DNA of 15,591 bases, from NCBI RefSeq assembly GCF_001279005.1, contig NZ_LGCN01000259.1:1-15591 (forward strand), written 5' to 3'. Within the stretch, counting starts at the first letter, position 1. Each line of letters begins with the position of its first letter. Shown one piece after another: positions 1-14,582 of the stretch. Below the pieces are notes generated by a model. The model saw nothing but the letters and a program-made list of their open reading frames with translations, was not told where the DNA came from and ran no database searches. The position numbers and the translations under genes were made by a program. Source of the DNA: Streptomyces caelestis. GTDB taxonomy: Bacteria; Actinomycetota; Actinomycetes; Streptomycetales; Streptomycetaceae.

Positions 1-141
1 GTCCAGGTACTCATGGCCGTCCTCGTCGTACATGCGGCTGCCGTGCGCACGGTCGAAGACGGTGGGCCAGCCGCGGCAGTAGCTGCGCACCTCGGACTCC
101 AGGGACTCGAAGACGGTCAGGTCGGGCTGGATGATGGTCAT
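1..141 (-). CDS. ectB: Diaminobutyrate--2-oxoglutarate aminotransferase, N-terminal 47 codons (cut by window edge)
   Basis: Read on the minus strand from ATG at 141-139, the frame is open to the window edge and gives the typical start of Streptomyces Ect[21 protein letters not shown], then a Y-C-R-G-W-P motif and the M-Y-D-E-D-G-H-x-Y-L-D segment that opens the class III aminotransferase fold. EctB is a PLP enzyme that converts L-aspartate-4-semialdehyde plus an amino donor (glutamate) to L-2,4-diaminobutyrate, the first committed step to ectoine. A GAGGA ribosome binding site lies at 152-148. The catalytic lysine and most of the protein lie outside the window. The gene is transcribed away from the decarboxylase operon, an unusual arrangement because ectB normally sits between ectA and ectC. 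The assignment is confident from the N-terminus alone. Completeness cannot be judged. Confidence 0.88.
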
Positions 142-697
142 CCACACTCCTCAGTGGGTTTCGGGTGACCGGTGTCGGCGGACCGAGGAGACAGCACTCC
201 ACGCGGACTGCTTGGCCGGCCTTGGGCATCGCTGGGCGGACGGCTGCGGCTGCAGAGGGCTGCGGGCGTCCATGAGGTGACGAAGGGCAGCCGGGCTCTG
301 GCAGGCGCCTTGTCGTGGGGCGGAATGGCCCTTGCTCCGAGCCTGCCCCGTTGACATGCAATGCCCATGCGAGAGGTGTGTACGCCTGGGCGATGGCGAG
401 CCCTGAACCGGCGTCGATCACTTCTGGTCACACTTCGACTTCACTCCGCGACGGAGTTTGCCGCACATGCCCCTTCTGTCCCATTTGATTGCTTTGCCGG
501 AAGGGCGTGCATTCTCTTGTGGCGTGAGTCACACATAGGGGGCGAAGGTGCATACCGCAAGGAGTCCTGGGGATACGGGGGCGCTTTCTCATTCCGTCGC
601 CGGCGCAAGATGGCCGATTCCTTGATCGGGCGTGTGACGCCTCGTCGCTCTGTCCCCTACGGTTTCGGGAAAACAATCGAAGCGCGGGGAGTATCAG
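142..697. promoter_or_regulatory. Divergent control region between ectB and the decarboxylase operon
   Basis: This 556-bp stretch carries no convincing gene. Short open frames here lack homology-like composition and ribosome binding sites. It must hold the promoters for both ectB (leftward) and the seven-gene operon (rightward). It is visibly richer in A/T than the flanking genes between about 350 and 700. A TTGACA hexamer at 351-356 could be a -35 box, but I see no good -10 at 16-18 bp. A perfect dyad, ACTCCG-CGA-CGGAGT, lies at 443-457. Exact start sites cannot be assigned from sequence. Confidence 0.6.
443..457. promoter_or_regulatory. 15-bp dyad, candidate operator
   Basis: ACTCCG and CGGAGT are perfect inverted 6-bp arms around a CGA centre, in the middle of the divergent control region. 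This is the spacing expected for a dimeric regulator. No regulator gene for it is identified here. It is the clearest symmetric site I found between the two divergent genes, but such a short dyad can arise by chance. Confidence 0.3.
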
Positions 698-1984
698 TTG
701 TCAGAAAATCCGACGAAGCGCATACAGGGACTCGCGGCGGAGGAACTTGCGAAAGAATTCGGAACCCCTCTGTTCGTATATGACGCTCAGGTCCTCGCGA
801 GGCAGTTACGGAAAATCTCCGAAGCCTTGCCCGTTGGCGTGGATGTCTTCTACTCGCTGAAAGCGAATCCGAATATCAGCGTGTGTGGGTTTCTCGGCAG
901 CCGGGGCGCGGGGGCGGAGGTCTCGTCGCTCACGGAACTCATCACTGCCCTCAGGGCGGGAGTGGATCCGGCCGACATCATCTTCCTCGGGCCGGGCAAG
1001 AGCAGGGCCGACCTCGAGGCCTGCGTATCAGCCGGCATCCATGCCGTGGTCTGCGAATCGCTTGCTGAGCTCCAGCTCCTGGACGACGTGGCAGCTGCCC
1101 GGGGAGCGGGCCGGTGCCCTGCCGTGCTGCGGGTCAACCCGGGCTTCCTCAGTAAGGGGTCCGGGCTGTCGATGGGAGGCAAACCGCGCCAGTTCGGCAT
1201 CGACGAGCAGGAGGTCCGCAGGGCAGGGGCCCTGCTCCGCTCCCTGGAACACGTCGAGGTCAAGGGATTCCACGCCTACATGGGAACCCGATTCCTTGAC
1301 CACCAGGATGTCGTGGCGAACACGCTGAACATCCTGGCGATGGCAGAAGACCTCGCCACTCAATTAGACATGGAGCTCTCCGTCGTGGACTTCGGGGGAG
1401 GCCTGGGGGTGGCCTACTTCGAGAACGAGTCGGAGCTCGACACAACGGAACTCGGGGAAGGCCTGGAAGGCCCGGTAGGTGATTTCCGTGCACGTCACCC
1501 GGACTGCAGGCTCATCATGGAGCTCGGTCGATTCCTCACAGCCGATGCCGGCACCTATGTGACACGGGCCGTCTACGTGAAGGAATCGATGGGTGAACTG
1601 TTCGTCGTAGCGGACGGCGGCACCAATCACCATATGGCAGCAGTAGGGATCGGAAGTTTCGTGAAACGGAACTTCCCTATAGTCCACCTGGGACGCCCTG
1701 CCGCCCGCCCCACACACACCTATACGGTCACCGGGCCGCTGTGCACGCCGAACGACACCATCGTGAAGAAGGCCAGGCTCCCCGAAGTCCGCCCCGGTGA
1801 CCTGCTCGGGATCGAACGCTCCGGCGCCTACGGTCCCACTGCCTCGCCCGGACTGTTCCTCAGCCACGGCTACCCCGCCGAGGTTCTTGTGCACGACGGA
1901 CACGCCACCCTCGTGCGAGAGCGGGACACACCCGAAGAGATGCTCTCCCGCCAGCATCTGGCGGTCTTCAAGGACGCCTCGTGA
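698..1984 (+). CDS. PLP-dependent decarboxylase, fold type III, BtrK/VinO-like (probably acts on a carrier-bound amino acid)
   Basis: The 428-residue length matches the family. The alanine-racemase-like barrel carries the PLP lysine K55 in Y-S-L-K-A-N, His192 in FHAYMGT, the glycine loop GGG 233-235 and the ELGRF phosphate-binding segment at 275-279. The C-terminal domain supplies Cys349 in GPLCTPND and Tyr378 in SGAYG. Diaminopimelate decarboxylases usually show C-E-S-x-D and ornithine decarboxylases C-D-S-x-D. The C-T-P-[EN]-D form is what I recall from BtrK, which decarboxylates gamma-glutamyl-ACP in butirosin biosynthesis. VinO and exosortase-associated decarboxylases do related jobs. Start is TTG 698 with GGGGAG at 686-691; the next methionine is far inside the fold. 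It heads an operon with a ligase and an ACP, so the likely substrate is an aspartyl- or glutamyl-ACP. A LysA role is less likely. Confidence 0.85.
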   Translation: MSENPTKRIQGLAAEELAKEFGTPLFVYDAQVLARQLRKISEALPVGVDVFYSLKANPNISVCGFLGSRGAGAEVSSLTELITALRAGVDPADIIFLGPGKSRADLEACVSAGIHAVVCESLAELQLLDDVAAARGAGRCPAVLRVNPGFLSKGSGLSMGGKPRQFGIDEQEVRRAGALLRSLEHVEVKGFHAYMGTRFLDHQDVVANTLNILAMAEDLATQLDMELSVVDFGGGLGVAYFENESELDTTELGEGLEGPVGDFRARHPDCRLIMELGRFLTADAGTYVTRAVYVKESMGELFVVADGGTNHHMAAVGIGSFVKRNFPIVHLGRPAARPTHTYTVTGPLCTPNDTIVKKARLPEVRPGDLLGIERSGAYGPTASPGLFLSHGYPAEVLVHDGHATLVRERDTPEEMLSRQHLAVFKDAS

Positions 1985-2358
1985 CACCCGGTGCGCCCAT
2001 GGGCGTAGGTCTGGACGTTCTCGAGCGCGACGAACTGGCCTGCCTGGTGACGCGCCACTGGTTCCTGCGGTACTGCTACGCCCCGGAGGAAATCCAACAG
2101 GCGCAGAACCTCGGACCCGAAAGGCGCCTGGAGTACCTCGCCGGACGCTTCGCCGCCAAAGAGGCCATCCTCAAAGCGCTGGGCAAGGGCCTGTTCCAAG
2201 GCATCGCGCCACGCAACATCCACATCGAGCGTGCTGACGACGGATCACCCCACGTCGAACTGCGCGCCGAGGCCGCCGAGGCAGCGTCCGACCAGACCGT
2301 GCGTATCTCGATCACCCACAAGAACAACGTGGTCGCCGCCGTGGCTCTCGTCTCCTGA
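1981..2358 (+). CDS. AcpS-type 4'-phosphopantetheinyl transferase
   Basis: The 125-residue protein has the two AcpS signatures: G-V-G-L-D-V-L-E at 8-15 (Asp12 binds Mg2+) and RFAAKEAILKALG at 56-68 (Glu61 is the second metal ligand, Lys60 is conserved). AcpS enzymes move the 4'-phosphopantetheine arm of CoA onto the serine of a carrier protein. GTG 1981 overlaps the decarboxylase stop by four bases (GTGA) and has AAGGA at 1970-1974, so translation is probably coupled. ATG 1999 is an alternative start. A dedicated AcpS in this short operon suggests it activates the ACP encoded at 4386-4655. Housekeeping AcpS genes normally sit elsewhere, but I cannot exclude that this is the only copy. Confidence 0.88.
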   Translation: MTPGAPMGVGLDVLERDELACLVTRHWFLRYCYAPEEIQQAQNLGPERRLEYLAGRFAAKEAILKALGKGLFQGIAPRNIHIERADDGSPHVELRAEAAEAASDQTVRISITHKNNVVAAVALVS

Positions 2359-2407
2359 CCCGAACCAGCACGCCACCACCAGCGACGGAAGAAGGAATGA
2401 CGCATCC

Positions 2408-2872
2408 ATGACTTCTCCTGAAGGTGACACGAACGCCGTCACAGCGCAGCTGCGCATCAGGATCGGCCAAGAAGAAGCCCACTACGGCGGGGAACTCGTC
2501 GACGGCGCACGACTCCTGCGCCTGTTCGGCGACCTCGTCACCGAAATCACCATCCGTACCGACGGCGACGAAGGACTGCTCGCCGAGTACTCCGACGTCC
2601 GCTTCACAGCACCCGTCCGCCCCGGAGACTACATCGAAGCCACAGCCCAGCTCGTACGGAGCACCAAGCTGCGCCGCTTCGTAGCCCTGGAAGCCCGGAA
2701 GGTCATCGCCTCCTGCGACACGAGTCCCAGCGCGGCCCAGCCACTGGCCGAACCCATCACGGTGTGCACGGCGAACGCGGTAACCGTCGTCCCCAAGCCG
2801 AAGCGGTCCAGCTCACCCGACGGCAGCCGGCACCAGAGCGAAAAGGACACCGTGCTGACAGGAGGACGGTAG
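2408..2872 (+). CDS. Hot-dog-fold protein resembling 3-aminobutyryl-/beta-alanyl-CoA ammonia-lyase (Kal-like)
   Basis: The 154-residue protein starts at ATG 2408 behind AAGGA at 2392-2396. An ATG at 2397 is out of frame. Residues 14-100 contain E-A-H-Y-G-G-E-L-V-D-G-A (23-34), L-F-G-D (39-42), D-G-D-E-G-L (52-57) and F-x-A-P-V-x-x-G-D-Y-I-E-A (66-78), followed by A-R-K-V-I. I recognise this pattern from Kal, the hot-dog enzyme of lysine fermentation, and from beta-alanyl-CoA:ammonia-lyase. Both reversibly remove ammonia from a beta-aminoacyl thioester to give the enoyl thioester. The C-terminal 40 residues are polar and look disordered. Beside a decarboxylase and an ACP, the logical substrate is beta-alanyl-ACP (acryloyl-ACP as product), or the reverse addition of an amine. 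The family match is good; the substrate is inference. A thioesterase-like role for this hot-dog protein is the main alternative. Confidence 0.72.
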   Translation: MTSPEGDTNAVTAQLRIRIGQEEAHYGGELVDGARLLRLFGDLVTEITIRTDGDEGLLAEYSDVRFTAPVRPGDYIEATAQLVRSTKLRRFVALEARKVIASCDTSPSAAQPLAEPITVCTANAVTVVPKPKRSSSPDGSRHQSEKDTVLTGGR

Positions 2873-4371
2873 TGCCCCAGCATCCGACCCTTCACTCCCT
2901 GCTCGACGAGACAGCCGCGGCACACCAGGACCGGTGTGCCATGAGTACCGCCTCGGACTCGATCACCTACAAGAACCTGGCACAGGCCTCTCGCCATGCT
3001 GCGCACCTGCTGCGCGCGCACGGTGTCCAGCGCGGTGACCGGGTCGTCATCTCCTCACCCGACGCGATCACCGTCGCCGTCGCAGTCCACGCCGCCTCCC
3101 GAGCAGGCGCGATGTTCAGCGTGCTGCACGAGGACGTCCGGGACAGCCCGCTCCAGCATGTGCTGCAGGACTGCGAACCCGCCGTGATCGTGACCGACGA
3201 CCCTGGTGTCTCCGCCACCGCACAAGCACACGACGTGCAGGTCCTCACCTCCCAGGAACTGCGCCACGCTCCAGCCCCGAGGGAAGGCTCACACCTGCCA
3301 AACCCTCCGCTCGGAGTCGACGGGGCGTGCCTGATCTACACCTCGGGCACCACGTCACTGCCCAAGGCAGTGGTCAGCACTCACCAGCAGGTGCTCTTCG
3401 CCGCCCAGGCCATCCAGGACTGTCTCGCCTACCGTGCCGACGACATCGTCTACAGCCCTCTGCCACTGTCCTTCGACTACGGCCTGTATCAGATGTTCCT
3501 GACGTTTCTGGCCGGCGCGCAGTTGCGAGTAGGCCATGTCGCAGAAGTCGGCCCACCCCTCCTGCGCGCCCTGCAGGACAGCAAGGCCACCGTGCTCGCC
3601 GCCGTGCCCTCCGTCTCCGACCGCCTGGCCTGGCTGGTGCGCAGGGCGAAGAACAAGCCCGCCCTGCGTCTGTTGACCAACACCGGCGCCGCCCTGTCCG
3701 AGAAGACCATCGCCGACCTGCGCGAGGCGATACCCACCTTGCGCGTGCAGCTGATGTACGGGCTCACGGAATGCAAGCGGGCCACCATCATGCCGCCGGA
3801 CGGAGACCTTCAGCGGCCCGGCTCGTCCGGAAAGGCGCTCCCCGGCACCGAGGTCTTCACCATCGATGACGACGGCAAGCGACTGCCGGCAGGAGAGGTC
3901 GGCCAGTTCGTCGTCCGTGGCTCCCACGTCATGGCCGGGTACTGGCGGCGCCCAGAGATGACCGCCGAACGCTTCCACCGGCGTGACGGCCTCTTTCCGG
4001 AACTGCGCACCGGCGACTACGGCTGGATGGACGACGAAGGCTACCTCTACTTCTCAGGGCGCCGTGACGACCTCTACAAGGAACGCGGATTCCGCGTCAG
4101 CGCCACCGAAGTGGAGGCCGCGGCCCGCCGTGTCGAAGGCGTGGACTCGGCGGCCGTGCTACCGCCCGGCCCGAAGACCGGGCATACCGCGGTACTGGCC
4201 GTAGTGACGGAACTGGACGGGCCCGAGGTACTGGCCCGCATGCAAGGACTCATCGAGGACTACAAGATCCCGCGCCGCTGCGTCCCGGTCCCGCACCTCC
4301 CCACCAACCACAACGGCAAAGTCGACCGACAGGCCCTGACCAACCTCATCCACGACCCCGCACACGCATGA
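2872..4371 (+). CDS. AMP-forming acyl/aminoacyl ligase (ANL superfamily, stand-alone adenylation enzyme)
   Basis: GTG 2872 shares one base with the preceding stop (TAGTG) and follows GGAGG at 2861-2865, giving 499 residues. Adenylation motifs in order: A3 Y-T-S-G-T-T-S-L-P-K at 156-165, FDYG at 201-204 (A4 region), A5 M-Y-G-L-T-E at 295-300, A7 T-G-D-Y-G at 380-384, A8 K-E-R-G-F-R-V-S at 403-410, and A10 N-G-K-V-D-R at 481-486 with catalytic Lys483. It should adenylate a carboxylate with ATP and pass it to the phosphopantetheine thiol of the downstream ACP. The A3 loop reads S-L-P-K-A rather than the usual G-x-P-K-G, a mild oddity. There is no fused condensation or carrier domain. Ligase, type III decarboxylase and ACP also occur together in exosortase-associated and butirosin/macrolactam loci. 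Substrate is not readable by eye; aspartate fits the neighbours best. Confidence 0.88.
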   Translation: MPQHPTLHSLLDETAAAHQDRCAMSTASDSITYKNLAQASRHAAHLLRAHGVQRGDRVVISSPDAITVAVAVHAASRAGAMFSVLHEDVRDSPLQHVLQDCEPAVIVTDDPGVSATAQAHDVQVLTSQELRHAPAPREGSHLPNPPLGVDGACLIYTSGTTSLPKAVVSTHQQVLFAAQAIQDCLAYRADDIVYSPLPLSFDYGLYQMFLTFLAGAQLRVGHVAEVGPPLLRALQDSKATVLAAVPSVSDRLAWLVRRAKNKPALRLLTNTGAALSEKTIADLREAIPTLRVQLMYGLTECKRATIMPPDGDLQRPGSSGKALPGTEVFTIDDDGKRLPAGEVGQFVVRGSHVMAGYWRRPEMTAERFHRRDGLFPELRTGDYGWMDDEGYLYFSGRRDDLYKERGFRVSATEVEAAARRVEGVDSAAVLPPGPKTGHTAVLAVVTELDGPEVLARMQGLIEDYKIPRRCVPVPHLPTNHNGKVDRQALTNLIHDPAHA

Positions 4372-4385
4372 AAGGAGCAGGCTCG

Positions 4386-4655
4386 ATGAGCCTCAACCGC
4401 GCAGACGTGACCGCCGCCATGGAAACGGCCCTGAACAAGGTGCTGGACCGGCCGGTGACCGGGCTCTCCGGACAGACCAGGCTCTTCGACGACCTTCACC
4501 TGGACTCCACCACGATGCTCGAGATGCTCATGGAACTCGAGGACTCCCTGGGCCTCGAGGTGGACCCCGAAGAACTCGAAGCCGACGACTTCGAGACCGT
4601 CGACACCTTCACCGACTTCGCCCTCGCCCAGCTCGAGACACGCAACGCGGCCTGA
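4386..4655 (+). CDS. Acyl carrier protein
   Basis: This is an 89-residue acidic helical protein with the phosphopantetheine site L-H-L-D-S-T at 37-42 (Ser41 modified), preceded by F-D-D-L and followed by the acidic helix M-E-L-E-D-S-L-G-L-E typical of recognition helix II. ATG 4386 is preferred over ATG 4368 because AAAGGAG at 4371-4377 is correctly spaced for it. ATG 4368 would overlap the ligase stop but has no ribosome binding site. The ACP directly follows the ligase that should load it and shares the operon with its own AcpS. It probably carries the amino acid through decarboxylation and presents the product to EctA. A role in fatty acid synthesis is unlikely because no other fab genes are present. 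Confidence 0.92.
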   Translation: MSLNRADVTAAMETALNKVLDRPVTGLSGQTRLFDDLHLDSTTMLEMLMELEDSLGLEVDPEELEADDFETVDTFTDFALAQLETRNAA

Positions 4656-4754
4656 ACGACCCACCACACCGACCAGCACATGCCCGCGGCCAGGCCGCCG
4701 AGCCTGCGCGAGACGCCATGCACGCACCCGACACGAGCCCAAGGGAAGGCAACC

Positions 4755-5159
4755 GTGATCGTTCGCTCGTTCAAGGACATCGAAGGTACTGACAGGCACG
4801 TCAAGTCCCGCTCCGGAACATGGGAGAGCAAGCGCATCATCCTCGCGAAGGAAGGAGTCGGCTTCTCCCTGCACGAGACGACCGTCTACGCCGGCACGGA
4901 GACGACCATGTGGTACGCCAACCACATCGAGGCCGTCCTCTGCGTCGAAGGCGAGACCGAGCTCACCAACGAGGAAACCGGCGAGAAGCATCTCATCACC
5001 CCCGGCACCATGTACCTGCTGAACGGGCACGAGAAGCACACGCTGCGCCCCACCGTGGACTCCCGTTTCATCTGCGTGTTCAACCCCCCGGTCACCGGCC
5101 GCGAGGATCACGACGAGAACGGCGTCTACCCCCTGCTCACCGAGGAGGCCACTGCATGA
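4755..5159 (+). CDS. ectC: L-ectoine synthase (cupin N-acetyldiaminobutyrate dehydratase) homologue
   Basis: GTG 4755 with AGGGAAGG at 4742-4749 gives 134 residues, normal for EctC. A longer frame from ATG 4680 adds only non-homologous sequence. EctC is a metal-dependent cupin that closes gamma-N-acetyl-diaminobutyrate into the tetrahydropyrimidine ring of ectoine. Visible signatures: I-V-R-S-F-x-D-I-x-G-T-D-R at the N-terminus, W-E-S at 23-25, H-E-T at 40-42, N-H-x-E-A-V at 56-61 (Glu59 at the iron-ligand position), P-G-T-M-Y at 83-87 (Tyr87), H-E-K-H at 92-95 (His95), C-V-F-N-P-P at 107-112 and H-D-E-N-G-V-Y at 119-125. Metal ligands are conserved. Several second-shell positions differ from typical EctC (FSLHET for FSFHET, A-V-L-C for A-V-Y-C, H-T-L for H-Y-L). 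It overlaps ectA by three bases. Confidence 0.9.
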
Positions 5160-5689
5160 CCGCGCCGGCCTCCCTCTCCACCCCCAGCCGAGCCCGCCCC
5201 GAGTACCGGACGCCGCGTGTCGAGGACACGCAAGCCATGTGGCAGATGGTGCACGAGTCGGACGAACTCGATGACAACAGCCCCTACTACTACGCGCTGT
5301 GGTGCCGCGACTTCGCCGAAACCTCCCTCGTGGCATCACTCGGCGACGAGGTCGTCGGCTTCCTGACCGGCTACTTCCGCCCCGATCAGCCCGACACCTA
5401 TCTGGTATGGCAGGAGGCCGTGAAGCCGCGCCATGGCATTCCGATGCTCGGAGTGCAGCTGTTCGAACAGGCCGCCGAGCGCGCGGTCAGCAAGGGTGCC
5501 CGCTACATCGAGGCGACCGTGTCGGCAGACAACAAGGCCATCATCATGGTGCTGAAGAAGTGCGCCAAGCGGTACCGGGCCCCCGTCCACACCGAAGTGC
5601 TCTTCCCGGGCTCGCTCTTCCCCGAGGAGCACCACGACGAGGTGCTCTACCGGATCGGGCCCATCGAGCCGGTCTCTGAACTCACCTGA
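5156..5689 (+). CDS. ectA: Diaminobutyrate acetyltransferase (GNAT) homologue with altered CoA-binding loop
   Basis: ATG 5156 lies inside the ectC stop region (ATGA) with GAGGAGG at 5142-5148. The product has 177 residues. EctA transfers an acetyl group from acetyl-CoA to the gamma-amine of diaminobutyrate. EctA hallmarks are present: V-x-E-S-x-x-L-D-x-N-S-P-Y around 32-44, C-R-D-F-A-E-T at 50-56, V-W-Q-E-A-V at 84-89, Y-I-E-A-T-V at 117-122, F-P at 150-151 and 155-156, and L-Y-R-I-G-P at 164-169. The substrate-binding L-D-x-N-S segment is intact. However, the GNAT pyrophosphate loop, normally R-G-x-G-L-[AG] after V-x-P-x-x, reads here [11 protein letters not shown] (89-99), so the paired glycines are lost. 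It may use an ACP-bound acyl donor, or be a weak acetyltransferase. It is the last gene of the operon, while ectA is normally first. Confidence 0.85.
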
Positions 5690-5704: not shown

Positions 5705-5771
5705 GGTGTCACCGCGCGCGTGCTCTCACTGTGCGCCACGGAAGGTGTTGCGGTAGGCGCGCGGTGACACC
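5705..5771. terminator. 15-bp inverted repeat at the convergent 3' ends, possible bidirectional terminator
   Basis: GGTGTCACCGCGCGC (5705-5719) is the exact reverse complement of GCGCGCGGTGACACC (5757-5771), separated by 37 bases. It lies between the convergent 3' ends of ectA and the AraC-type gene and overlaps the last codons of the latter. A GC-rich stem here could end both transcripts. There is no T-tract on either side and the loop is long, so the role is uncertain. Confidence 0.35.
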
Positions 5772-6709
5772 CCCAGTGCTTCGCGGAAGTGCTGGCGCAT
5801 CGCGGTTCCCGTCCCGAAGCCGGCCGCGGCGGCGATGCGGTCCACGGGATCGTCCGTGCGTTCCAGCAGCCGGCGCGCATACTGCAGACGTTGCTGGCCG
5901 AGCCACTGCATCGGCGTCATGCCGGTCTCCTGGCGGAACCTGCGGGTCAGTGTGCGCACGCTCGTCGAGGCCTGGCGAGCCAGATCCTGCAAGGTCAGGG
6001 TCTCGTCGAGGTGCTCCACGGCCCAGGCGCGGAGCGCGGCGGTGGAGCTGTCGCCGCCATCGGGCACGGGGCGGTCGATGTACTGGGCCTGGCCGCCTTC
6101 CCGGTGCGGTGGGACCACCGTGCCGCGGGCGACGGTGTTGGCGATGTCGGCGCCGTGGTCACTGCGGATCATGTGCAGGCACAGGTCGATTCCCGCGGCG
6201 ACACCCGCGGACGTCAGCACCTGTCTGTCGTCGGTGTACAGCACGTCGGGGTCGACATCGATCTCCGGGTACAGGGCGGCCAGCTCGGGACACGACTTCC
6301 AGTGCGTCGTCGCCCGCCGGCCCGCGAGCAGGCCGGCTGCCGCCAGGACGAACGAGCCGGTGCAGATGGAAGCCAGACGCGCTGTCGCCGGCACTTCCGC
6401 GAGAGCCGCTTCGACCAGCGGGCTCAGCCGGCCCCGCTGCTGGGGCCCGTAGTCCTCGACTGCGGCCGGCACGATCACCGTGTCCGCGTCGCGTAGGGCC
6501 CGCGGCCCCAATGGCACATTGACCGTGAAGTCGGCGTCGGTCAACACCTCGCCCGGCTCCACGGCGCAGGTCACGACCGAGTACAGGCGCCGGCCGGCCT
6601 CATTCACCGCGGTGCCGAACAGGCGGTGCACGATGCCCAGCTCCATGGGCAGAAGGCCATGACGAACCAGGACCACAACTTTGTGCACGGAATCCTCACT
6701 CACTGTCAT
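5726..6709 (-). CDS. GlxA-type AraC family transcriptional regulator (DJ-1/PfpI-like domain plus AraC helix-turn-helix)
   Basis: The protein has 327 residues. Residues 9-200 form a class I glutamine amidotransferase-like (DJ-1/PfpI) sensing domain with the S-I-C-T-G-S-F nucleophile elbow (Cys116) and T-H-W at 135-137. Residues about 225-322 are the AraC/XylS domain with two helix-turn-helix units (L-x-D-L-A-R-Q-A at 240-247; I-A-A-A-A-G-F at 292-298) and the closing G-V-S-P-R-A-Y-R motif. In this family the N-terminal domain usually senses a small molecule and is not catalytic. The gene is divergent from the MFS gene, with 71 bp between starts, and convergent with ectA. It most likely controls the transporter. 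Control of the ectoine-like operon is possible but no shared site is evident. Confidence 0.9.
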   Translation of the reverse strand: MTVSEDSVHKVVVLVRHGLLPMELGIVHRLFGTAVNEAGRRLYSVVTCAVEPGEVLTDADFTVNVPLGPRALRDADTVIVPAAVEDYGPQQRGRLSPLVEAALAEVPATARLASICTGSFVLAAAGLLAGRRATTHWKSCPELAALYPEIDVDPDVLYTDDRQVLTSAGVAAGIDLCLHMIRSDHGADIANTVARGTVVPPHREGGQAQYIDRPVPDGGDSSTAALRAWAVEHLDETLTLQDLARQASTSVRTLTRRFRQETGMTPMQWLGQQRLQYARRLLERTDDPVDRIAAAAGFGTGTAMRQHFREALGVSPRAYRNTFRGAQ

Positions 6710-6780: not shown

Positions 6781-8091
6781 ATGCACAACGCCACCGGCCA
6801 TCACACCAACGCCGCCGGGCGCCGCGCCTGGTGGGTAGCCGCCGTCACCGGAGTGGCGATCATCGTCGCCGGTGCCTTCTCCACCATGCCAGGCATCCTG
6901 CAGGACCCCCTGCGCCAGGAGTTCCACTGGTCCCGCGGCTCCATCGGCCTGGCGGCCTCGGTCAACATGATCCTCTACGGGCTCACCGCCCCCTACGCCG
7001 CCGCCCTGATGGACCGCTTCGGCATCCGCCGGATCGTCATCGCCGGGCTGGGAGCCGTCGCCGCCGGAGCACTGCTCACCACCACGATGAGCGCAGCCTG
7101 GCAGTTCACGCTTTTCTGGGGCTTCCTCGTCGGCCTCGGCACCGGATCACTCTCGATGACCCTCGGTACCACCGTCACCAACCGCTGGTTCACCACCCGC
7201 CGCGGCCTGGTGACCGGCATCCTCTCCTCCGGCAGCGTCCTCGGCCAGATGGTCTTCCTGCCCGCCCTCTCCTGGACCATCGCCCACCACGACTGGCGAC
7301 CCGCCCTCGTCAGCCTCGCCCTCGCCGCACTGGCGGTCACCCCCCTGATCCGCCTCGTCCTGCGTGACCACCCCGCCGACGTCGGACAACGCCCCTACGG
7401 CAGCAACACCTTCATCCCACGCCCCGCACCCGTTCCCGGAGCAGCCCGCCGCACCGTGACCGTCCTGCGCGACGCCGCCCGGACCGTCCCCTTCTGGCAG
7501 CTCGCCGGCGCATTCGCCATCTGCGGCGCGTCCACCAACGGCATCATGTGGACCCACTTCGCCCCAGCGGCCCACGACCACGGCATGCCCGTCACCACCG
7601 CCTCGACACTGCTGGCACTCATCGGCGTCTTCAACGTGGCCGGCACCATAGCCTCCGGATGGTTCACCGACCGCATGGACGCCCGCCGGCTCCTCGCCGC
7701 CTACTTCCTCCTACGCGGCCTGCTGATGATCAGCCTGCCGCTGGTCATGACCGCCAGCGTCAACGCACCCATGCTCACCTTCGTGGTCGTCTTCGGCCTT
7801 CTCGACCTGGCGACCGTGCCACCGGTCATCGCCCTGTGCCGCACCTTCTACGGCGACGACAGCGCCATCGTCTTCGGCTGGACCAACGCGGCACACCAGA
7901 TCGGTGCGGCCTCGGCCTCCTTCCTCGGCGGCGTGGCCCGCGACGCCTTCGGCAGCTACGACCCTGTCTGGTTCGCACTCGCAGCCTTCTGCGCGGCCGC
8001 CGCCATGCTGTCCCTGGTCATCCGCCTCCGCCCCACCGCCTCGGCCGAGACCGACAAGAAAACGTACGCATCGTCCGCCACGGAGCAGTGA
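6781..8091 (+). CDS. Major facilitator superfamily transporter (monocarboxylate/oxalate-formate porter-like)
   Basis: The 436-residue protein has about 12 hydrophobic segments in two blocks of six, split by a polar loop near residues 205-240. The F-H-W-S-R-G-S-I-G-L-A segment after the first helix and R-F-G-I-R-R between helices 2 and 3 are typical of the MCT/oxalate-formate branch of MFS. A second cytoplasmic loop reads F-T-D-R-M-D-A-R-R. The start at ATG 6781 is supported by GAAGGA just upstream and by the start of membrane helix 1 near residue 16. It pairs divergently with the AraC-type regulator. It could export or import a small carboxylate, perhaps the product of the adjacent pathway, but the substrate cannot be read from sequence. 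Confidence 0.87.
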   Translation: MHNATGHHTNAAGRRAWWVAAVTGVAIIVAGAFSTMPGILQDPLRQEFHWSRGSIGLAASVNMILYGLTAPYAAALMDRFGIRRIVIAGLGAVAAGALLTTTMSAAWQFTLFWGFLVGLGTGSLSMTLGTTVTNRWFTTRRGLVTGILSSGSVLGQMVFLPALSWTIAHHDWRPALVSLALAALAVTPLIRLVLRDHPADVGQRPYGSNTFIPRPAPVPGAARRTVTVLRDAARTVPFWQLAGAFAICGASTNGIMWTHFAPAAHDHGMPVTTASTLLALIGVFNVAGTIASGWFTDRMDARRLLAAYFLLRGLLMISLPLVMTASVNAPMLTFVVVFGLLDLATVPPVIALCRTFYGDDSAIVFGWTNAAHQIGAASASFLGGVARDAFGSYDPVWFALAAFCAAAAMLSLVIRLRPTASAETDKKTYASSATEQ

Positions 8092-8262: not shown

Positions 8263-8417
8263 ACGGTCGGCTCGAAGACAGACCGGACGACGCAACGGCA
8301 GCGGATGTGCGAGCTTTCTTCTCTTGGATGCCGATCGAGAACCCCCGGATGACCTGCGACAACGCCCTCAAGCAACTCAGTCGAATCAGGACTGACCCGA
8401 AATTCCTAGCCTTTTGA
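8196..8417 (+). pseudogene. Unrecognised gene remnant
   Basis: One frame reads C-D-I-F-G-D-A-H-A-G-R-E-R-L-S-V-E, then a TAG at 8247-8249, then continues I-V-R-Q-H-G-R-L-E-D-R-P-D-D to a TGA at 8415-8417. Composition looks protein-like but I cannot name the family. Its first part lies in the inverted repeat and its last 12 bases overlap the end of the MBL-fold gene on the other strand. With no start and an internal stop it is probably a relic. The rest of 8092-8195 shows no gene. Confidence 0.25.
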
Positions 8418-9260
8418 GGCGGTGGAGCGGGCCAGCTCCCATGGGTCGTGGGCGCTGAAGACGGTGATCTCATCCGCGTGGTCGCGTCGGAGGGAGCGCA
8501 GCCGGTCGCGGGTCGCGTCGCGAGCCGCGACGTCGGTCTGTGCTCCCTGCTGGACCGGCTCAAGGGCGGGATGCGAGAAAGGCAGCGTGTGCTCGAGCTC
8601 GCCGTGATACATATACGCGTCACCCGCATGCAGCAGCCACCGTCCGTGGCCGTCGCGCACGGCGACACCCGAGTGTCCCGCCGAGCGACCAGGCAGCGGA
8701 ACCAGCAGCAGCTCGCATGCCAGCCCCTGCGGCCGCGTCACGCCGGGGAAGCCGAACCACTTTGTGCGATCCGCCATGGGTGCGGGTGTGAGCAGCGGGT
8801 TGTGCGCCCGGTGTGCTGGCATGAAGCGGTCGAGGCTGTGCCGGTGGTGCGCTGCCGTGGGGTCGGTGACGGCCCGGTATTCGTCGGGGTGGACATGCAC
8901 CTGTGCGTGAGGGAAGTCCGGCAGTCCTCCCGTGTGGTCGCGATGCAGGTGGGTGAGCACGATGTGCCGCACGTCCTGGGGCGCGTACCCGAGGCGGACG
9001 ACCTGGCGCAGCGCGCTCTCCTCGGGGTTCAGTGCGGGCTGGGCGTAGGCGACCCAGTCCGCACCCAGCGACCGGTCAGGGTGCTGTAGGTCGGCGGTGC
9101 CGAGGCCGGTGTCGGCCAGGATCAGCCCGTCCGAGTCCGTCTCGATGAGCAGGCAATGGCAGGCAACGGCCCGTTCGCGGTTCACAGCGCCGGCCGGAGG
9201 TTCTTCGCCGAGTAGTGGAATCCCCCGGAAAGAACCGCAGTTGAGGTGGTGGATACGCAC
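8406..9260 (-). CDS. MBL-fold metallo-hydrolase resembling N-acyl-homoserine lactonases
   Basis: From GTG 9260 the product has 284 residues and begins M-R-I-H-H-L-N-C-G, the usual start for this group. A TTG at 9278 would add six residues but has a poorer ribosome binding site. The zinc motif H-L-H-R-D-H lies at 104-109, preceded by the A-D-T-G-L-G loop near 49-54 and followed by G-H-S-G (third metal histidine) and H-A-G-D-A (bridging aspartate). The C-terminal V-F-S-A-H-D-P supplies the last histidine. Related AttM/AiiB-like enzymes open lactone rings, and many actinobacterial paralogues have unknown substrates. All expected metal residues are present, so it could be active. It lies between two copies of a long inverted repeat. 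Confidence 0.85.
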   Translation of the reverse strand: MRIHHLNCGSFRGIPLLGEEPPAGAVNRERAVACHCLLIETDSDGLILADTGLGTADLQHPDRSLGADWVAYAQPALNPEESALRQVVRLGYAPQDVRHIVLTHLHRDHTGGLPDFPHAQVHVHPDEYRAVTDPTAAHHRHSLDRFMPAHRAHNPLLTPAPMADRTKWFGFPGVTRPQGLACELLLVPLPGRSAGHSGVAVRDGHGRWLLHAGDAYMYHGELEHTLPFSHPALEPVQQGAQTDVAARDATRDRLRSLRRDHADEITVFSAHDPWELARSTASKG

Positions 9261-9318
9261 AAGGCCCCCTGGAGGCAAGCTGACGGGGTGTTCTTGCCGG
9301 ACGTGAGGAGAGGCCTTC

Positions 9319-9697
9319 GTGGCTCACCAAACCGTTGGACACGCACCGGCGGGTGATCACACCCACGACATCACCGCTGCCCGCCACGATCATGTCCTGG
9401 CCCGTCTGCGCGCCGCCGGTCTCGGAGCGCTGGCGGACCTCGGCTTCCGCGGCCTGGACAACGACGTGTGCGATCCCGTGATCGTCACCGGTTTTGCAGC
9501 CACCCGCGCCCACAAGTTCACTCCCGGTCAGAAGACCGCCAACCGCGTCCTCGCCACCGGACGCGCTCCCGTCGAGCACGGCTTCGCCCACCTCAAGGAC
9601 TGGCGGACCCTCCGCCAAACTCCGCACTGACCCCGCCCGCGCCACCCACCTCCTGCGCGCCCTGCTCGTCCTGAAGAATCTCAAAGTCAACCGCTGA
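9319..9697 (+). pseudogene. IS5-family (DDE_Tnp_4-like) transposase, C-terminal fragment with a frameshift
   Basis: From about 9364 the frame reads H-D-I-T-A-A-R, then L-A-D-L-G-F-R-G-L-D, T-P-G-Q-K-T-A-N-R-V-L-A and the catalytic-glutamate segment V-E-H-G-F-A-H-L-K-D-W-R, which I recognise as the 3' third of common Streptomyces DDE transposases. An extra C near 9612-9616 shifts the frame. The protein then continues K-L-R-T-D-P-A-R-A-T-H-L-L-R-A-L-L-V-L to a stop at 9695-9697. The N-terminal two thirds and the first catalytic aspartate are missing. The stop codon lies within the right inverted repeat. Confidence 0.8.
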
Positions 9698-9800
9698 CCG
9701 ACGATCTACTCCACAGACAGCCGCTCACGACCAGCGTGAGCATCCCCGAAGACTGTCACACCAGCCCTTTGGCCTGTGTCTTCAGGTTGGCGGAGGCTCA
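9693..9800 (-). repeat. Right copy of the ~107-bp inverted repeat
   Basis: This is the reverse-complement partner of 8157-8262. Its outer end meets the IS3-like remnant and its inner end overlaps the last codon and stop of the IS5-type fragment. The two copies differ at several positions, so they are old or were acquired separately. Confidence 0.85.
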
Positions 9801-9855
9801 GTGGTGTGCGCGAGGAACCCATGCCGGGAAAGCGATGCTGTATCAGTTGTCTTCC

Positions 9856-9978
9856 GGACATGACGGACAACGCCTCGGCTGCCTCAGCCCGGTCGAGTTC
9901 GAAGAGCAGCACCACGCCGAGCAGGCAGCGACCGACCGAGCGAACCTGAAACCCCGCCGACCTGCTCCGACCAGCTGA
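9856..9978 (+). pseudogene. IS3-like transposase, extreme C-terminal remnant
   Basis: Forty codons read R-L-G-C-L-S-P-V-E-F-E-E followed by A-x-Q-A-A-T-D-R-A-N-L-K-P-R, matching the tail of Streptomyces IS3-family orfB proteins (L-G-Y-L-S-P-V-E-F-E). The catalytic core is absent. The frame is open further upstream but does not resemble transposase there. This is a relic at the outer edge of the right inverted repeat. Confidence 0.6.
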
Positions 9979-10068
9979 CCAGCCCTTCCCGAGCAACGGG
10001 GGAACCTCAGCCACGGCACGCTGGTCCTGGGAAAAAGGGGCGGAACAGGTGGGACAGCCGCGGCCCTC

Positions 10069-10254
10069 GAGCTCACAGTGGTGGAGGTTCGGCGACTCCT
10101 GGCAGATGGTCGCGTCCGGCCCCGGCACCTGAGCGGACACCGAGGACTGCACCACGCGCTGAGCTGGTCGAACCGACGCCGCCGACGCCACGCAGTCGCC
10201 CGCCGCTGTCACTACCTGCGGCGTTGCCGCACGAGCGAGGGACGGTCTCCGTGA
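10069..10254 (+). pseudogene. IS701-like transposase, C-terminal remnant
   Basis: The frame reads E-L-T-V-V-E-V-R-R-L-L, then H-A-L-S-W-S-N-R-R-R-R-R-H-A-V-A-R-R-C-H-Y, ending at TGA 10252-10254. This L-T-x-x-E-V-R-R-L-L ... W-S-x-W-R-R-x-H-Q-A-x-A-R-x-x-H-Y pattern closes many Streptomyces IS701-family transposases. Only the tail remains, and no upstream catalytic domain is found between 9979 and 10068. Confidence 0.55.
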
Positions 10255-10283
10255 GACCGCCCCCGCATGATCGAAGTCCCGCT

Positions 10284-10340
10284 ATACTCCAGTTGCCCAG
10301 CGAAAACCGCAGGTCAGACAGCAAAGTCCGGCTGGAGTAT
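10284..10340. repeat. 9-bp inverted repeat between an IS701-like tail and the quinone reductase gene
   Basis: ATACTCCAG (10284-10292) and CTGGAGTAT (10332-10340) are perfect inverted arms 39 bases apart, ending exactly at the reductase stop codon. It could be an IS end or contribute to termination of the reductase transcript. Neither is demonstrable. Confidence 0.3.
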
Positions 10341-10945
10341 CAGGACAGTGTCCGCGAGCGGGCATGAATGGCTCCACTGATGATCCGCACTGCGCGGTCG
10401 ACACTCCGAGCCGTGGCCTCGGAGGAAGCCTGCTCGGACTCGTAGATGAACGCTGTGGCGCCGCGCCGGCTGCCACAGTAGTCGACGATTCCGTGCTCGA
10501 TCTGCGTTCGCAGTGCTTCCTCGTACCCGTGGCGCTCGTATGCGCCGGAGTCGTCGCCGGCGATGGGCAGAAGATGTGTGGTGAGTGCCTGAAGTTTCGG
10601 TCGCAGGCCAGAAGTCGGGGAGTGCTCGAAGGCCCAGCCGTTGACAAAGACGCGGTCTATCCACCCCTTCAGCAGCGCAGGCATCGACCACCAGTACACA
10701 GGGAAGATCAATACGAGATCGGTGGCGCGCTCGAGGCGACGGTGCTCACTGACGATGTCGGCCGGATAGTTGCCGCCCTCGTGGTACGCCCGGCGATCCG
10801 CCAGGGTGAACGCGGGGTCGAACCGTTCCTTGGCCAGGTCGGCGGCCTCGACTGACATGGGGTGGAGTGCCGCCTTGAGTTTTTCCAGCACGTGATGCGT
10901 CAGGGACTGGGGGTCTGGGTTCGTGGCGACCAGCAGGGTGTGCAT
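10340..10945 (-). CDS. NAD(P)H dehydrogenase (quinone) / flavodoxin-like oxidoreductase
   Basis: The 201-residue protein has a flavodoxin-like fold: strand 1 and the FMN/FAD phosphate loop at M-H-T-L-L-V-A-T-N-P-D-P-Q-S-L (1-15), and the signature F-P-V-Y-W-W-S-M-P-A-L-L-K-G-W at 81-95 followed by D-R-V-F. This is the MdaB/KefF/NQO1-like family, soluble flavoproteins that reduce quinones or related electrophiles by two electrons. Start ATG 10945 has GAGGGAGAG upstream on the minus strand. It is divergent from a TetR regulator and shares its palindromic operator, so it is probably induced by an electrophile that the regulator senses. Confidence 0.9.
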   Translation of the reverse strand: MHTLLVATNPDPQSLTHHVLEKLKAALHPMSVEAADLAKERFDPAFTLADRRAYHEGGNYPADIVSEHRRLERATDLVLIFPVYWWSMPALLKGWIDRVFVNGWAFEHSPTSGLRPKLQALTTHLLPIAGDDSGAYERHGYEEALRTQIEHGIVDYCGSRRGATAFIYESEQASSEATARSVDRAVRIISGAIHARSRTLS

Positions 10946-10968
10946 CGACAGCTTCTCTCCCTCAAGGA

Positions 10969-11003
10969 TAACCTACTAGTAGTAGCTTACTGGTAGTAGG
11001 TTA
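10969..11003. promoter_or_regulatory. 35-bp palindromic operator between the quinone reductase and tetR genes
   Basis: TAACCTACTAGTAGTA (10969-10984) and TACTGGTAGTAGGTTA (10988-11003) are inverted 16-bp arms with two mismatches around GCT. Within each arm TAGTA repeats. The site fills the short intergenic gap and ends three bases before the TetR ATG, so bound repressor would block both divergent promoters. Confidence 0.8.
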
Positions 11004-11006
11004 CTC

Positions 11007-11606
11007 ATGGATGAGAGACTGCCGGGCATGGCCGAGCGACGACTCCCCAGTGCCGAGCGGCGGGCCCAGCTCGTCGGCATCGCCCGCGACGTGATCGCCA
11101 CCGAAGGTACGGACGCGCTCACGCTCGCGTACCTGGCGAGCAGAGCAGGGATCTCCAAGCCCGTCGTCTACGATCACTTCTCCTCGCGCTCGGCACTTCT
11201 CCTCTCGCTGTATCAGGACTTCGACCAGCGACACCTCGCCGACCTGCATGCTGCGATAGCGCACACCCCGCCGGATTTGCGGCAGCGGGTCGAAGCGATC
11301 GCGACGGCTCATGTCGCGTGCATCGTCTCCCAGGGGGTCGAACTCAGTGGAGTGGTGGCCGCCCTGGCCGGCACGCCAGCCCTCGAGAAAGTCAGGCGAG
11401 AATCCGAACGCCGCTACGTAGACATCTGTCGGCAAGCCATACGAAGCGCCGACGGCGCTGCGGACCTCGGTAAGGAAGCAGCCATTGCATTCGTAGGCGC
11501 CGCGGACGCACTCGGCCATGCGGCCGCCCGTGAAACGATCAGCCCGGAACTCGCCCGATCGACCATCACCACCGTGTTGCTCAGCCTTGTCAACGCCTCT
11601 GGCTGA
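11007..11606 (+). CDS. TetR family transcriptional regulator
   Basis: The 199-residue protein has an N-terminal TetR DNA-binding domain: A-R-D-V-I-A-T-E-G at 26-34, then L-T-L-A-Y-L-A-S-R-A-G-I-S-K-P-V-V-Y-D-H-F at 38-58, with the recognition helix around 49-58. The remainder is a helical ligand-binding and dimerisation domain. ATG 11007 has no Shine-Dalgarno and follows the operator directly, so the message may be leaderless. ATG 11028 is an alternative start with a weak site. Divergent from the quinone reductase, it very likely represses that gene and itself. Confidence 0.9.
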   Translation: MDERLPGMAERRLPSAERRAQLVGIARDVIATEGTDALTLAYLASRAGISKPVVYDHFSSRSALLLSLYQDFDQRHLADLHAAIAHTPPDLRQRVEAIATAHVACIVSQGVELSGVVAALAGTPALEKVRRESERRYVDICRQAIRSADGAADLGKEAAIAFVGAADALGHAAARETISPELARSTITTVLLSLVNASG

Positions 11607-11684
11607 AGGACTCGGAGCCATGCAGTCGCTCTCGTGTCGATAACCTCCTGACCCTGCAGTTGCCGAATACCTGACCCATGCTGG

Positions 11685-11928
11685 TCAGGTCGCATGGGTG
11701 TACTCGTGGAGGGTGCCGCCGAGTCGTGTGCGTCTGCGTATGTCGAGACACGCGATCGTGCCCGCATCTTCGATCGGAGCAGGCAGCGGATGGAGGGGGG
11801 CGAGCATTCGCGATGCCCTGGTGTGGCCCGTGCCCGTTGCAGAAGGATCCGAACTCGCGCAGGGTGTACAGGAGATGACACCGGTTCCAGAGCGGTGTGC
11901 GGTCCAGCAGTTCTCGTCGGCAGGTTTG
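11685..11928 (-). pseudogene. Integrase-type (IS481-like) transposase, 3' remnant, copy 2
   Basis: On the minus strand the frame reads T-C-R-R-E-L-L-D-R-T-P-L-W-N, then L-R-E-F and H-Q-G-I-A-N-A-R, then a frameshift, and ends L-D-I-R-R-R-T-R-L-G-G-T-L-H-E-Y-T-H-A-T stop at 11687-11685. This is the C-terminal end of the same transposase family found next to it at 11964-12697, but diverged from it. The tail after the stop resembles the tail after copy 1 (T-T-C-G-G-C-A-A ... G-C-A-G-G-G), suggesting a shared element end near 11635-11660. Confidence 0.7.
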
Positions 11929-11963
11929 CGCCCTGCCCTTGCCGAAATCCTCGTCCGGGCAGG

Positions 11964-12697
11964 TCAGGCGGCATGCTCGTACTCGTGAAGAAGGCCGCCG
12001 AGGCGATCGCGTCGTCGTACCTCGAGGCGGGCGATCTGGTCCGGATCGGCGATCGGCGGGGCGACGGGTTCAGCTGGCGGGCGTTCGCGATGCCCCGATG
12101 GGGCCGGTGCACATGGGAGACACGCTCGAATTCCCGCAGGGCGTGGAGCGGATGCGGCTGATCCCAGATCGAGGTCCGGTCCAGCAGCTCGCGCCTGCAG
12201 GTCTGCACCCAGCGTTCCATGACCGCATTCATCCGCGGCATCCGGACGCCGCTGAGCACGACCTCGATCCCCGCACTGGCGAGGACCGTGTCGAACAGGG
12301 CGGGGAACTTCCCGTCCCGGTCCCAGGTCAGGAACCGTGCCCGGCAGTTGACATCCTCCAGGGCCATGACGAGATTTCTCGTGGCCTGCGCCACCCACGA
12401 GGCCGTCGGGCGCGCGGCCGAGCCCAGGATCCGGATCCGTCGGCCGACGTGCGCGATCACGGCGAACACGTACGGTCGTGCCCCGGTCAGGGTGACCGTC
12501 CCGAAGAAGTCGCAGGCCGGCAGCGCGTCGGCCGGGGAGCGCAGGAAGTCGGCCCACGTGCTGGAGGCCCGTTCGGGCGCCGGGTCGATCCCGGCCTCCC
12601 GCAGGATCTCCCAGACCGTGGAGGCGGCGGCCTTCACGCCCAGCACCAGCAGCTCGCCGTGGAGGCGCCGGCAGCCCCACGTGGGATGCTCCCTGCA
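11964..12697 (-). pseudogene. Integrase-type (IS481-like) transposase, 5'-truncated and frameshifted, copy 1
   Basis: The minus-strand frame shows H-P-T-W-G-C-R-R-L-H-G-E-L, S-T-V-W-E-I-L-R-E-A-G-I-D-P-A-P-E-R, A-C-D-F-F-G-T-V-T-L-T-G (the first catalytic Asp region), R-D-G-K-F-P-A-L-F-D (second), M-P-R-M-N-A-V-M-E-R-W-V-Q-T-C (third, Glu) and I-A-N-A-R. A frameshift near 12060 then moves to the frame ending L-G-G-L-L-H-E-Y-E-H-A-A stop at 11966-11964. The N-terminal helix-turn-helix is missing beyond about 12697, where a different transposase fragment begins on the opposite strand. DDE residues survive but the gene is not intact. Confidence 0.8.
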
Positions 12698-12708
12698 ACA
12701 GAGGCCGG

Positions 12709-12956
12709 GACGAGATCCTCGACTCCGTACCAAAGCCCTGTCTGACGAGGAAGCCGCTACCGCCATCGCGTTCTTGCCCCGGGCCAGGACCTTGTCTGCA
12801 GCCCACGGCATCACCCCCATCGAACGCATCGTCACAGACGACGGGGATTGCTACCGCGCCGGCGCGTTCGCGCAGACCCTGCTCGCCACACGTCATCAGC
12901 GCATCACCCTGTACACACCTCGCCACAACGGCAAGGTGGAGCGCTACGACCGGATC
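12709..12956 (+). pseudogene. IS481-like transposase internal fragment
   Basis: The plus-strand frame reads A-L-S-D-E-E-A-A-T-A-I-A-F-L, then A-A-H-G-I-T-P-I-E-R-I-V-T-D-D-G and Y-T-P-R-H-N-G-K-V-E-R-Y, the second Asp and the Glu of an rve-type catalytic core. No first Asp precedes it and the usual H-Y-N-Y-H-R-P-H ending is absent. The same frame runs on into unrelated sequence to TGA at 13071-13073. This is a third, opposite-orientation fragment in the same cluster. Confidence 0.75.
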
Positions 12957-13087
12957 AAGCCAGCCGTTGTCAGAGCGGTTCGGGAGCTGAAGTACAAGAG
13001 CGGCAGGATCTACCGATTACGGCTGCTGGTGGGATATCTCTGGCAAGGCGGCCCGGATCGGGGCCGTTCTTGAAAGGAGGCCTTGTC

Positions 13088-13957: not shown

Positions 13958-14049
13958 GACAGCGGCTCGACCAGCAGCGCACTCCACGGGCGACGGCCAC
14001 CATGCTCCGTCCTGGAAGAGTCAGTGGTGGCCGCGGCGGCACTTCGGGC

Positions 14050-14569: not shown

Positions 14570-14582
14570 CTTTCGACCTTTA

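Follow-up and report, generated by a model that had tools for sequence, protein, structure and literature searches.

Ectoine genes joined to an acyl carrier protein loading module in Streptomyces caelestis: a predicted carrier-protein-dependent variant of ectoine biosynthesis

Ectoine and hydroxyectoine biosynthesis, encoded by ectABC and ectD, is the described pathway closest to the locus presented here. The two have in common homologs of EctB, EctA, and EctC, the conserved residues of EctC, and, in some relatives, EctD. They differ in that the EctA of the present operon lacks the acyl-CoA P-loop, and in that the operon carries its own ligase, decarboxylase, ammonia lyase, acyl carrier protein (ACP), and AcpS, often with its own regulator and MFS transporter. 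These additional genes resemble the starter-loading systems VinN/VinO/VinL (vicenistatin) and FlvN (fluvirucin), which share an Asp-type ligase, a free ACP, and ACP-bound decarboxylation; FlvN is a known Asp loader. Relative to those systems, the operon adds an ammonia lyase, and its predicted acceptor is diaminobutyrate rather than a polyketide synthase. Profile search found no polyketide synthase among ten window proteins tested, and covered the neighbors of some relatives only. BtrI/BtrJ/BtrK from butirosin biosynthesis shares the decarboxylase family and the carrier-bound logic, while using a different amino acid and acceptor, with neither lyase nor ring closure. The lyase matches Acl2 and Kal at the family level, with blocks DAHY..G, GAR, GD..TE, and FTAPV..GD; it differs from them in its predicted action on ACP thioesters and in scoring under the Kal cut-off.

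The window, meaning the whole stretch of DNA analyzed, is the 15,591 nucleotides of contig NZ_LGCN01000259.1 of Streptomyces caelestis. All of the genes named in a preliminary description of this DNA (ectB, decarboxylase, AcpS, Kal-like lyase, ligase, ACP, EctC, and EctA) are present by profile matches and coordinates, in the order given in Table 1. The tight operon ending in ectC and ectA that it described runs from 698 to 5689, with a divergent, partial ectB adjoining; adjacent genes overlap by 1-4 bases at four of the six junctions, given the chosen start sites. The contig (G000:C258) stops inside ectB. The first 99 bases of the window also open contig C187, on which ectA-ectB are found, and the assembly therefore broke at a repeat. 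A complete divergent ectB occurs in the relative L248.

Table 1. Features of the operon and its flanks in the window.
Feature	Position	Strand	Evidence or remark
ectB 5' end, DABA aminotransferase, 47 aa N-terminus	1..141	-	divergent; gene cut by contig end; no ectA upstream
Divergent intergenic region, ectB / operon	142..697	.	
PLP decarboxylase, BtrK/VinO-like, predicted aminoacyl-ACP substrate	698..1984	+	PF02784/PF00278
AcpS-type phosphopantetheinyl transferase	1981..2358	+	PF01648, TIGR00516
Beta-amino-acyl-thioester ammonia lyase (Kal/Acl-like)	2408..2872	+	NF052388, 142 bits, below cut-off of 160
AMP ligase, VinN-like, predicted L-aspartate loading via beta-carboxyl	2872..4371	+	PF00501
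Free-standing acyl carrier protein, LHLDST site	4368..4655	+	PF00550, alignment; start may be 4386
EctC-type ring-closing cupin	4755..5159	+	PF06339; PRK13290, 186 bits, cut-off 128
EctA-type acyltransferase without acyl-CoA P-loop	5156..5689	+	TIGR02406, 144 bits, cut-off 120.6
Lost P-loop site, RHGIPMLG, EctA residues 92-99	5429..5452	+	
AraC-family regulator with DJ-1/PfpI domain, common neighbor	5726..6709	-	PF12833, PF01965
MFS transporter, common neighbor, candidate exporter	6781..8091	+	PF07690

The reading we favor, with moderate confidence, is a carrier-protein-dependent variant of ectoine biosynthesis in which EctA transfers an ACP-borne, non-acetyl acyl group onto diaminobutyrate, after which EctC forms the ring of a 2-substituted ectoine, likely 2-vinyl. 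AcpS would prime the ACP, and the VinN-like ligase would attach L-aspartate to it through the beta-carboxyl. The BtrK/VinO-like decarboxylase would convert Asp-ACP to beta-alanyl-ACP, from which the Kal/Acl-like lyase would remove ammonia to give acryloyl-ACP. With L-2,4-diaminobutyrate supplied by EctB, the P-loop-less EctA would take its acyl group from the phosphopantetheine arm of the ACP, instead of from acetyl-CoA, and place it on the gamma-amino group. Ring closure by EctC would then yield, most likely, 2-vinyl-tetrahydropyrimidine-4-carboxylate (C7H10N2O2, 154.074), which EctD may hydroxylate in some relatives and which the MFS protein would probably export. Every reaction, the identity of the acyl group, and the product are predicted from sequence; the product is probably a new ectoine-like molecule, despite gene annotations that point to ordinary ectoine. 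The preliminary description had outlined the same overall scheme, from aspartate through acyl-ACP to EctA and EctC, and each of its steps has gained support from sequence comparison, the product itself standing as a prediction.

Aspartate loading is suggested by the Asp-recognition residues of the ligase, which scores 340 bits against VinN (3wvn). It retains D230, K330, and R331 of VinN, aligns to VinN without gaps in the short loop, and has the bulky residues Y and T in place of F231 and S299, features of a VinN-type beta-amino acid ligase. The D and KR motifs occur in every ect-linked ligase read except that of L025, which is truncated and has KR only; the fragmentary L256 was excluded. VinN itself loads 3-methylaspartate, and loading of that or another acid, leading to methacryloyl or 3-aminoisobutyryl and a larger 2-substituent, would be compatible with the glutamate-mutase-like gene found in 8 of 21 module genomes, including that of the window. 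We regard this alternative as doubtful, given that no such gene was found in the other 13 genomes and that none of the eight matches lies within the module locus; they are on other contigs or, in G166, 1.6 Mb away. A missing glutamate mutase was dropped as proof of aspartate, one such gene being encoded in the genome of the window itself, and it serves as a partial argument only.

The decarboxylase has BtrK as its best relative in the PDB, scoring 260 bits where diaminopimelate decarboxylase scores 167. Its GPLCTPxD motif is of the BtrK type, with CTPxD replacing CExxD in comparison with BtrK and one diaminopimelate decarboxylase, and this assignment favors the earlier suggestion of beta-alanyl-ACP as its product. 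Membership in TIGR03098 and TIGR03099, the exosortase-associated ligase and decarboxylase, was considered and rejected (323 bits against a cut-off of 592, and 358 against 478). For the lyase, the sole significant relative of solved structure is beta-alanyl-CoA:ammonia lyase 4mtu, at 58.8 bits, or 76.3 bits (2.5e-20) as a profile. The blocks shared with Acl2 place the protein in the same superfamily, its catalytic role being predicted, and this relationship is in keeping with the proposed Kal-like step to acryloyl-ACP. The cut-off of NF052388 (3-aminobutyryl-CoA ammonia lyase) was passed in none of 394 genomes, and the window lyase falls short of it (Table 1).

Asp loading and decarboxylation would first yield beta-alanyl-ACP, and the beta-alanyl group might itself be transferred, with the lyase acting later or no elimination occurring in vivo, to give 2-(2-aminoethyl)-tetrahydropyrimidine-4-carboxylate (C7H13N3O2, 171.101). 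Ammonia lyases of the Kal/Acl type are reversible, which counts in favor of such a product. Two points weigh against the acryloyl route: the Acl equilibrium lies toward the beta-alanyl rather than the acryloyl thioester, and the lyase scores under the Kal cut-off. We nevertheless consider the beta-alanyl outcome unlikely, since it has no need of the lyase, a gene found in each ect-linked module that the examined DNA covers completely.

The clearest departure from ordinary ectoine genes is found in EctA. The acetyl-CoA-binding P-loop, RGxGxA, is missing from module EctAs: all 20 have HG[IV]PxLG and none has RGxG, which is found in 29 of 30 ordinary EctAs, the remaining one reading RGRR. The ordinary set consists of the 28 next-best matches at the examined loci plus two from the window's own genome; ordinary EctAs and EctCs alike were selected by score, with gene surroundings checked for only part of them. 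Module EctAs form a single clade on a long branch with support of 100/100. A second tree was built from 11 of the 20 module and 18 of the 30 ordinary EctAs. Basic residues have been gained at positions 92 (19/20), 134 (20/20), and 135 (12/20), and would suit an acidic ACP. By model, the best match of a module EctA is still EctA. Among 120 of 150 relatives found, 107 have the HG[IV]PxLG-type loop and none has RGxG, and most of the named entries are labeled diaminobutyrate acetyltransferase. Loss of the P-loop does not prove an ACP donor, but it speaks for the transfer of an ACP-borne acyl group to diaminobutyrate that had been put forward for EctA.

EctC has changed less. The window protein keeps the metal and substrate residues W21, S23, R25, T40, Y52, E57, Y84, H92, C104, and F106, which lends weight to its proposed role in closing the ring. 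Types A and B comprise 14 EctCs, all of which keep the 11 checked residues common to the 25 high-scoring family EctCs (L180-L204). At position 38, where P. lautus has N, the window protein and all 25 high-scoring EctCs have H, so that N38H was rejected as a module-specific change. The window EctC has V42, T66, and S100, matching a carrier-linked signature of V42, [TSCM]66, and S100, with F at position 100 in one of 14. It lies close to ordinary EctC in the tree and could probably still make ectoine from acetyl-DABA. Of 18 module and 25 ordinary EctC rows, 13 and 20 respectively entered this tree, which leaves aside L205 (partial) and L206-L208 (lower-scoring, with other residues at 21 and 38). 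Carrier-linked EctCs require two changes on it, a single change appearing in 8% of bootstrap trees; they do not form one clade, and a single origin is therefore backed by EctA only.

Type C EctCs carry Y84H, and the type D loci L144 and L145 combine the module with ectB, ectA, a P450, and a LysE-type exporter in the absence of ectC, each of these genomes having one EctC on another contig. Both observations would fit an acyl-diaminobutyrate as end product, or as substrate for P450 oxidation, with a minor or different role for EctC, the compound being an electrophilic amino-acid antimetabolite. For the window type this is very unlikely, as its EctC keeps the known residues and overlaps ectA.

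The gene set, its recurrence, and the motif losses and retentions are directly established. The set was found again in Streptomyces, Nocardiopsis, Lentzea, and Halosaccharopolyspora, and modules occur in the families Streptomycetaceae, Pseudonocardiaceae, and Nocardiopsidaceae. A scan with the ligase placed ectA nearby in 13 of the best 80 of 580 loci. One of these (L004) is cut by a contig end within the decarboxylase, where the locus starts; another (L025), besides its truncated ligase, lacks decarboxylase and lyase while keeping the ACP and ectC-ectA. The lyase occurs together with ect genes in 7 of 394 Streptomycetaceae genomes searched, in one of which (G329) the gene set is split over two contigs. 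Within the window's genus, 12 of 392 genomes have the variant EctA. ectD adjoins the module in L008, L013, and L253-L255. L138, L147, and L252 were taken as duplicates of L018, L016, and L020.

The expectation that the ACP module and ectAC stay together held only in part. In the loci examined the variant EctA has a carrier-protein cassette as its neighbor, except in L250, a remnant with ectA and a truncated ectC but no ligase or ACP, and in G329, where variant EctA and module are on different contigs. In L010, L014, L016, and L018, however, the lyase and ligase adjoin ketosynthase or KASIII-like genes and ectAC is missing; ketosynthase or KASIII genes likewise lie beside the ect-less L138 and L139.

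Over 18 loci, from which the partial L004 and L025 were left out, pairwise distances of five module proteins correlate with r of 0.81-0.93 over ten protein pairs, and for each pair 0 of 999 permutations reached as high a value; linkage alone could cause this. Chance placement of an unrelated ACP module next to ordinary ectoine genes is the least probable reading we weighed, because the set recurs in three families, the P-loop-less EctAs form a single clade, the distances of the module proteins correlate, and an ordinary EctA is encoded elsewhere in 19 of the 21 genomes with the variant (all but those of L004 and L012). EctC and EctA do exceed the ectoine family cut-offs, and the ect genes persist in L025 and L250 where the loading genes are mostly or entirely lost, as chance adjacency would allow.

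A second P-loop-less EctA lineage, sister to that of the module (L257-L259), adjoins a dichloroacetyl cassette similar to cmlM, cmlJ, cmlK, and cmlS of chloramphenicol biosynthesis, with a CmlS-type halogenase, a putative carrier protein, and ectC, ectD, and ectB; in contrast to chloramphenicol, its predicted acceptor is diaminobutyrate. The cassette is absent from the window. The chance seems about even that carrier-protein ectoine pathways are a whole class, in which P-loop-less EctA takes interchangeable acyl groups from ACP cassettes (acryloyl in the window's type, dichloroacetyl in the sister lineage) and EctC and EctD make reactive or halogenated 2-substituted ectoines, exported as bioactive compounds although the annotation of the genes names ordinary ectoine.

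A search by title and start of abstract, covering a minority of subscription papers and no bioRxiv preprints, found no description of this gene set. PMC5924519 leaves the role of ectC genes outside ordinary ect clusters open; the pathway, if correct, would supply one concrete role. Modular carrier-protein logic might then equip the ectoine ring with non-methyl side chains, of which the vinyl group would make the amidine electrophilic and the dichloromethyl group would give a halogenated ectoine, and a route to engineering new compatible solutes would follow. The state of the EctA P-loop provides a one-line test for finding such clusters. In several relatives, AcpS and the lyase read as one open reading frame.

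In GNAT enzymes the P-loop grips the pyrophosphate of CoA. In 29 of 30 ordinary EctA proteins the corresponding position, which we take to be the CoA-pyrophosphate loop, has the sequence RGxG; in all 20 EctA proteins compared from carrier-module loci, decayed locus L025 included, it is HG[IV]PxLG. Module EctAs form a single clade in the EctA tree (support 100/100). An ordinary EctA is also present in 19 of 21 genomes with the variant form; among 20 such ordinary copies, 17 show RGxG and three RGQR. The best structural match to an AlphaFold model of the EctA (pLDDT 85.8, built with 16 sequences) is EctA 6sjy (E 2.7e-16). Module EctAs gain basic residues at 92 and 134, and 12 of 20 have another at 135, a pattern that would fit the docking of an acidic ACP.

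A related P-loop-less EctA, with loop NGISGLG or NGVSGLG, occurs at loci L257 and L258/L259 (genomes G840 and G904), beside genes for a 108-aa protein, an SDR, an AMP ligase, a hexapeptide protein, a halogenase, a phosphopantetheinyl transferase and a Na+/H+ exchanger. The halogenase of L258 scores 1074.8 bits with the CmlS model NF033113, above its cut-off of 900, and both halogenases of this lineage carry the CmlS C-terminal domain. The 108-aa protein has no Pfam match (L257, L258) and no NCBIfam match (L258). The chloramphenicol genes, as described in PMC4249514, encode CmlM, a 108-aa putative ACP adjoining the SDR CmlJ, the ligase CmlK and the halogenase CmlS; a PPTase and a Na+/H+ antiporter are encoded close by. 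The cassette likewise has SDR, ligase, CmlS-type halogenase, PPTase and Na+/H+ transporter; because CmlM sits in such surroundings, we read the 108-aa protein as a putative carrier protein. The ectC of this lineage lies on the opposite strand, followed in L259 by ectD, an MFS gene and ectB, and the predicted product is 2-dichloromethyl ectoine. A 100/100 branch separates module and sister EctAs together from ordinary EctA. That one EctA clade adjoins two unlike acyl-carrier cassettes is the best argument for its proposed carrier dependence.

The nearest named relative of both the window ligase (ligase scan) and the window EctA (tree) is Streptomyces torulosus. Among the best 80 of 580 loci in a ligase scan of genome contigs, 13 have ectA nearby (L004-L009, L011-L013, L015, L017, L020, L025), in Streptomyces, Halosaccharopolyspora, Lentzea and Nocardiopsis. 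The preliminary description had proposed a search for a conserved gene set; recurrence with ectA is borne out, but constant association is not, as four further loci (L010, L014, L016, L018) carry lyase and ligase without ectAC, adjoining ketosynthase or KASIII-like genes. Neither decarboxylase nor ACP was seen at L010. Lyase with loading-module parts also adjoins such genes at L133, where no ligase was seen, and L139; a possible role at these loci is an acryloyl or beta-alanyl polyketide starter. Strong lyase matches (E < 1e-30) occur in 16 of 394 Streptomycetaceae genomes: seven with ect genes (G000, the window's own, G298, G007, G234, G299, G166 and G329, the last with lyase and ect genes on separate contigs), four adjoining KASIII-like genes (G371, G386, G324, G297), and five of another kind. 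A shorter, 126-aa Kal-like protein occurs at L134, L136, L140 and L143, at L134 adjoining a flavin monooxygenase-like protein, an amine oxidase and an acyl-CoA dehydrogenase.

By EctA profile search, 12 of 392 genomes of the window's genus have the variant: nine with the module (one, G1054, fragmentary), two with a different cassette and one remnant (G941). Across the class, 88 of 394 genomes have any EctA at E 1e-25; scores are bimodal: two EctAs, both from module loci, reach 300-320 bits, and the others lie at or below 161 bits. In two decayed relatives ectA survives the loss of loading genes: L025 retains part of the ligase, ACP, ectC, ectA and the regulator and MFS genes, and L250 retains ectA, the ectC 3' end and the regulator and MFS genes.

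The closest solved structure to the window ligase is VinN (340 bits). At the VinN residues named in a review, D230, F231, S299, K330 and R331 (PMC11253843), it aligns D, Y, T, K and R. A second review (PMC11284099) describes VinN as attaching 3-methylaspartate to VinL for decarboxylation by VinO, and gives aspartate as the acid that FlvN recognises. BtrK is the nearest solved relative of the window decarboxylase (260 bits), and both have a CTPxD motif. The lyase, searched singly against solved structures at E <=1, matched only beta-alanyl-CoA:ammonia lyase 2; as a profile it scored E 2.5e-20 (runner-up 0.021). From this combination of ligase, decarboxylase and lyase, the loading genes are predicted to make acryloyl-ACP; acryloyl would be the likeliest acyl group, with beta-alanyl or methacryloyl also possible.

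Four architectures were distinguished. Type A is the window's arrangement, found also at L248 with a complete, divergent ectB. Type B has ectB, with ectD alongside in L008, L013 and L253-L255 and ectB only in L009 and L012. Type C (L007, L011, L135, L137, L249, L251) has ectB, a P450, an FAD reductase, an altered EctC and, in some, a 65-aa gene; P450, ferredoxin and reductase were named by Pfam in L011 and by likeness or eye elsewhere. Type D (L144, L145) has ectB and ectA, a P450 and a LysE-type exporter without ectC, and its predicted product is an acyl-diaminobutyrate, perhaps oxidized. Metal and ligand residues of EctC are given in PMC6344544. Eleven checked residues are identical between the 14 type A/B EctCs and all 25 high-scoring family EctCs; the four type C EctCs compared have S38 and H84. 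Carrier-linked EctCs compared all have V42, and all but one S100.

The window is the entire contig G000:C258 of an 8.6 Mb draft assembly. Adjacent operon genes overlap by 1-4 bases at four of six junctions, and the divergent ectB runs only 47 codons before the contig end. Downstream lie an AraC/DJ-1 regulator gene and then an MFS transporter gene, whose proximity to the operon suggests product export.

Features of the window by position
Feature	Position	Strand	Basis
99-base repeat	1-99		
Decarboxylase, AcpS, Kal/Acl-like lyase, AMP ligase, ACP, ectC, ectA	698-5689	plus	
Metallo-beta-lactamase-fold gene	8406-9278		
Transposase-like fragments	within 8406-15491		by eye
Flavodoxin-like gene	10340-10945		by eye
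TetR-like regulator	11007-11606		by eye
Second metallo-beta-lactamase-like gene	13307-13957		by eye

G000 holds several ect copies, and 99-base repeats inside ectB and ectC are assembly break points in the window and contigs C187, C202, C106 and C265. Judged by eye, an ectD on C106 carries a frameshift, and on C265 transposase-like sequence follows the 3' end of an ectB.
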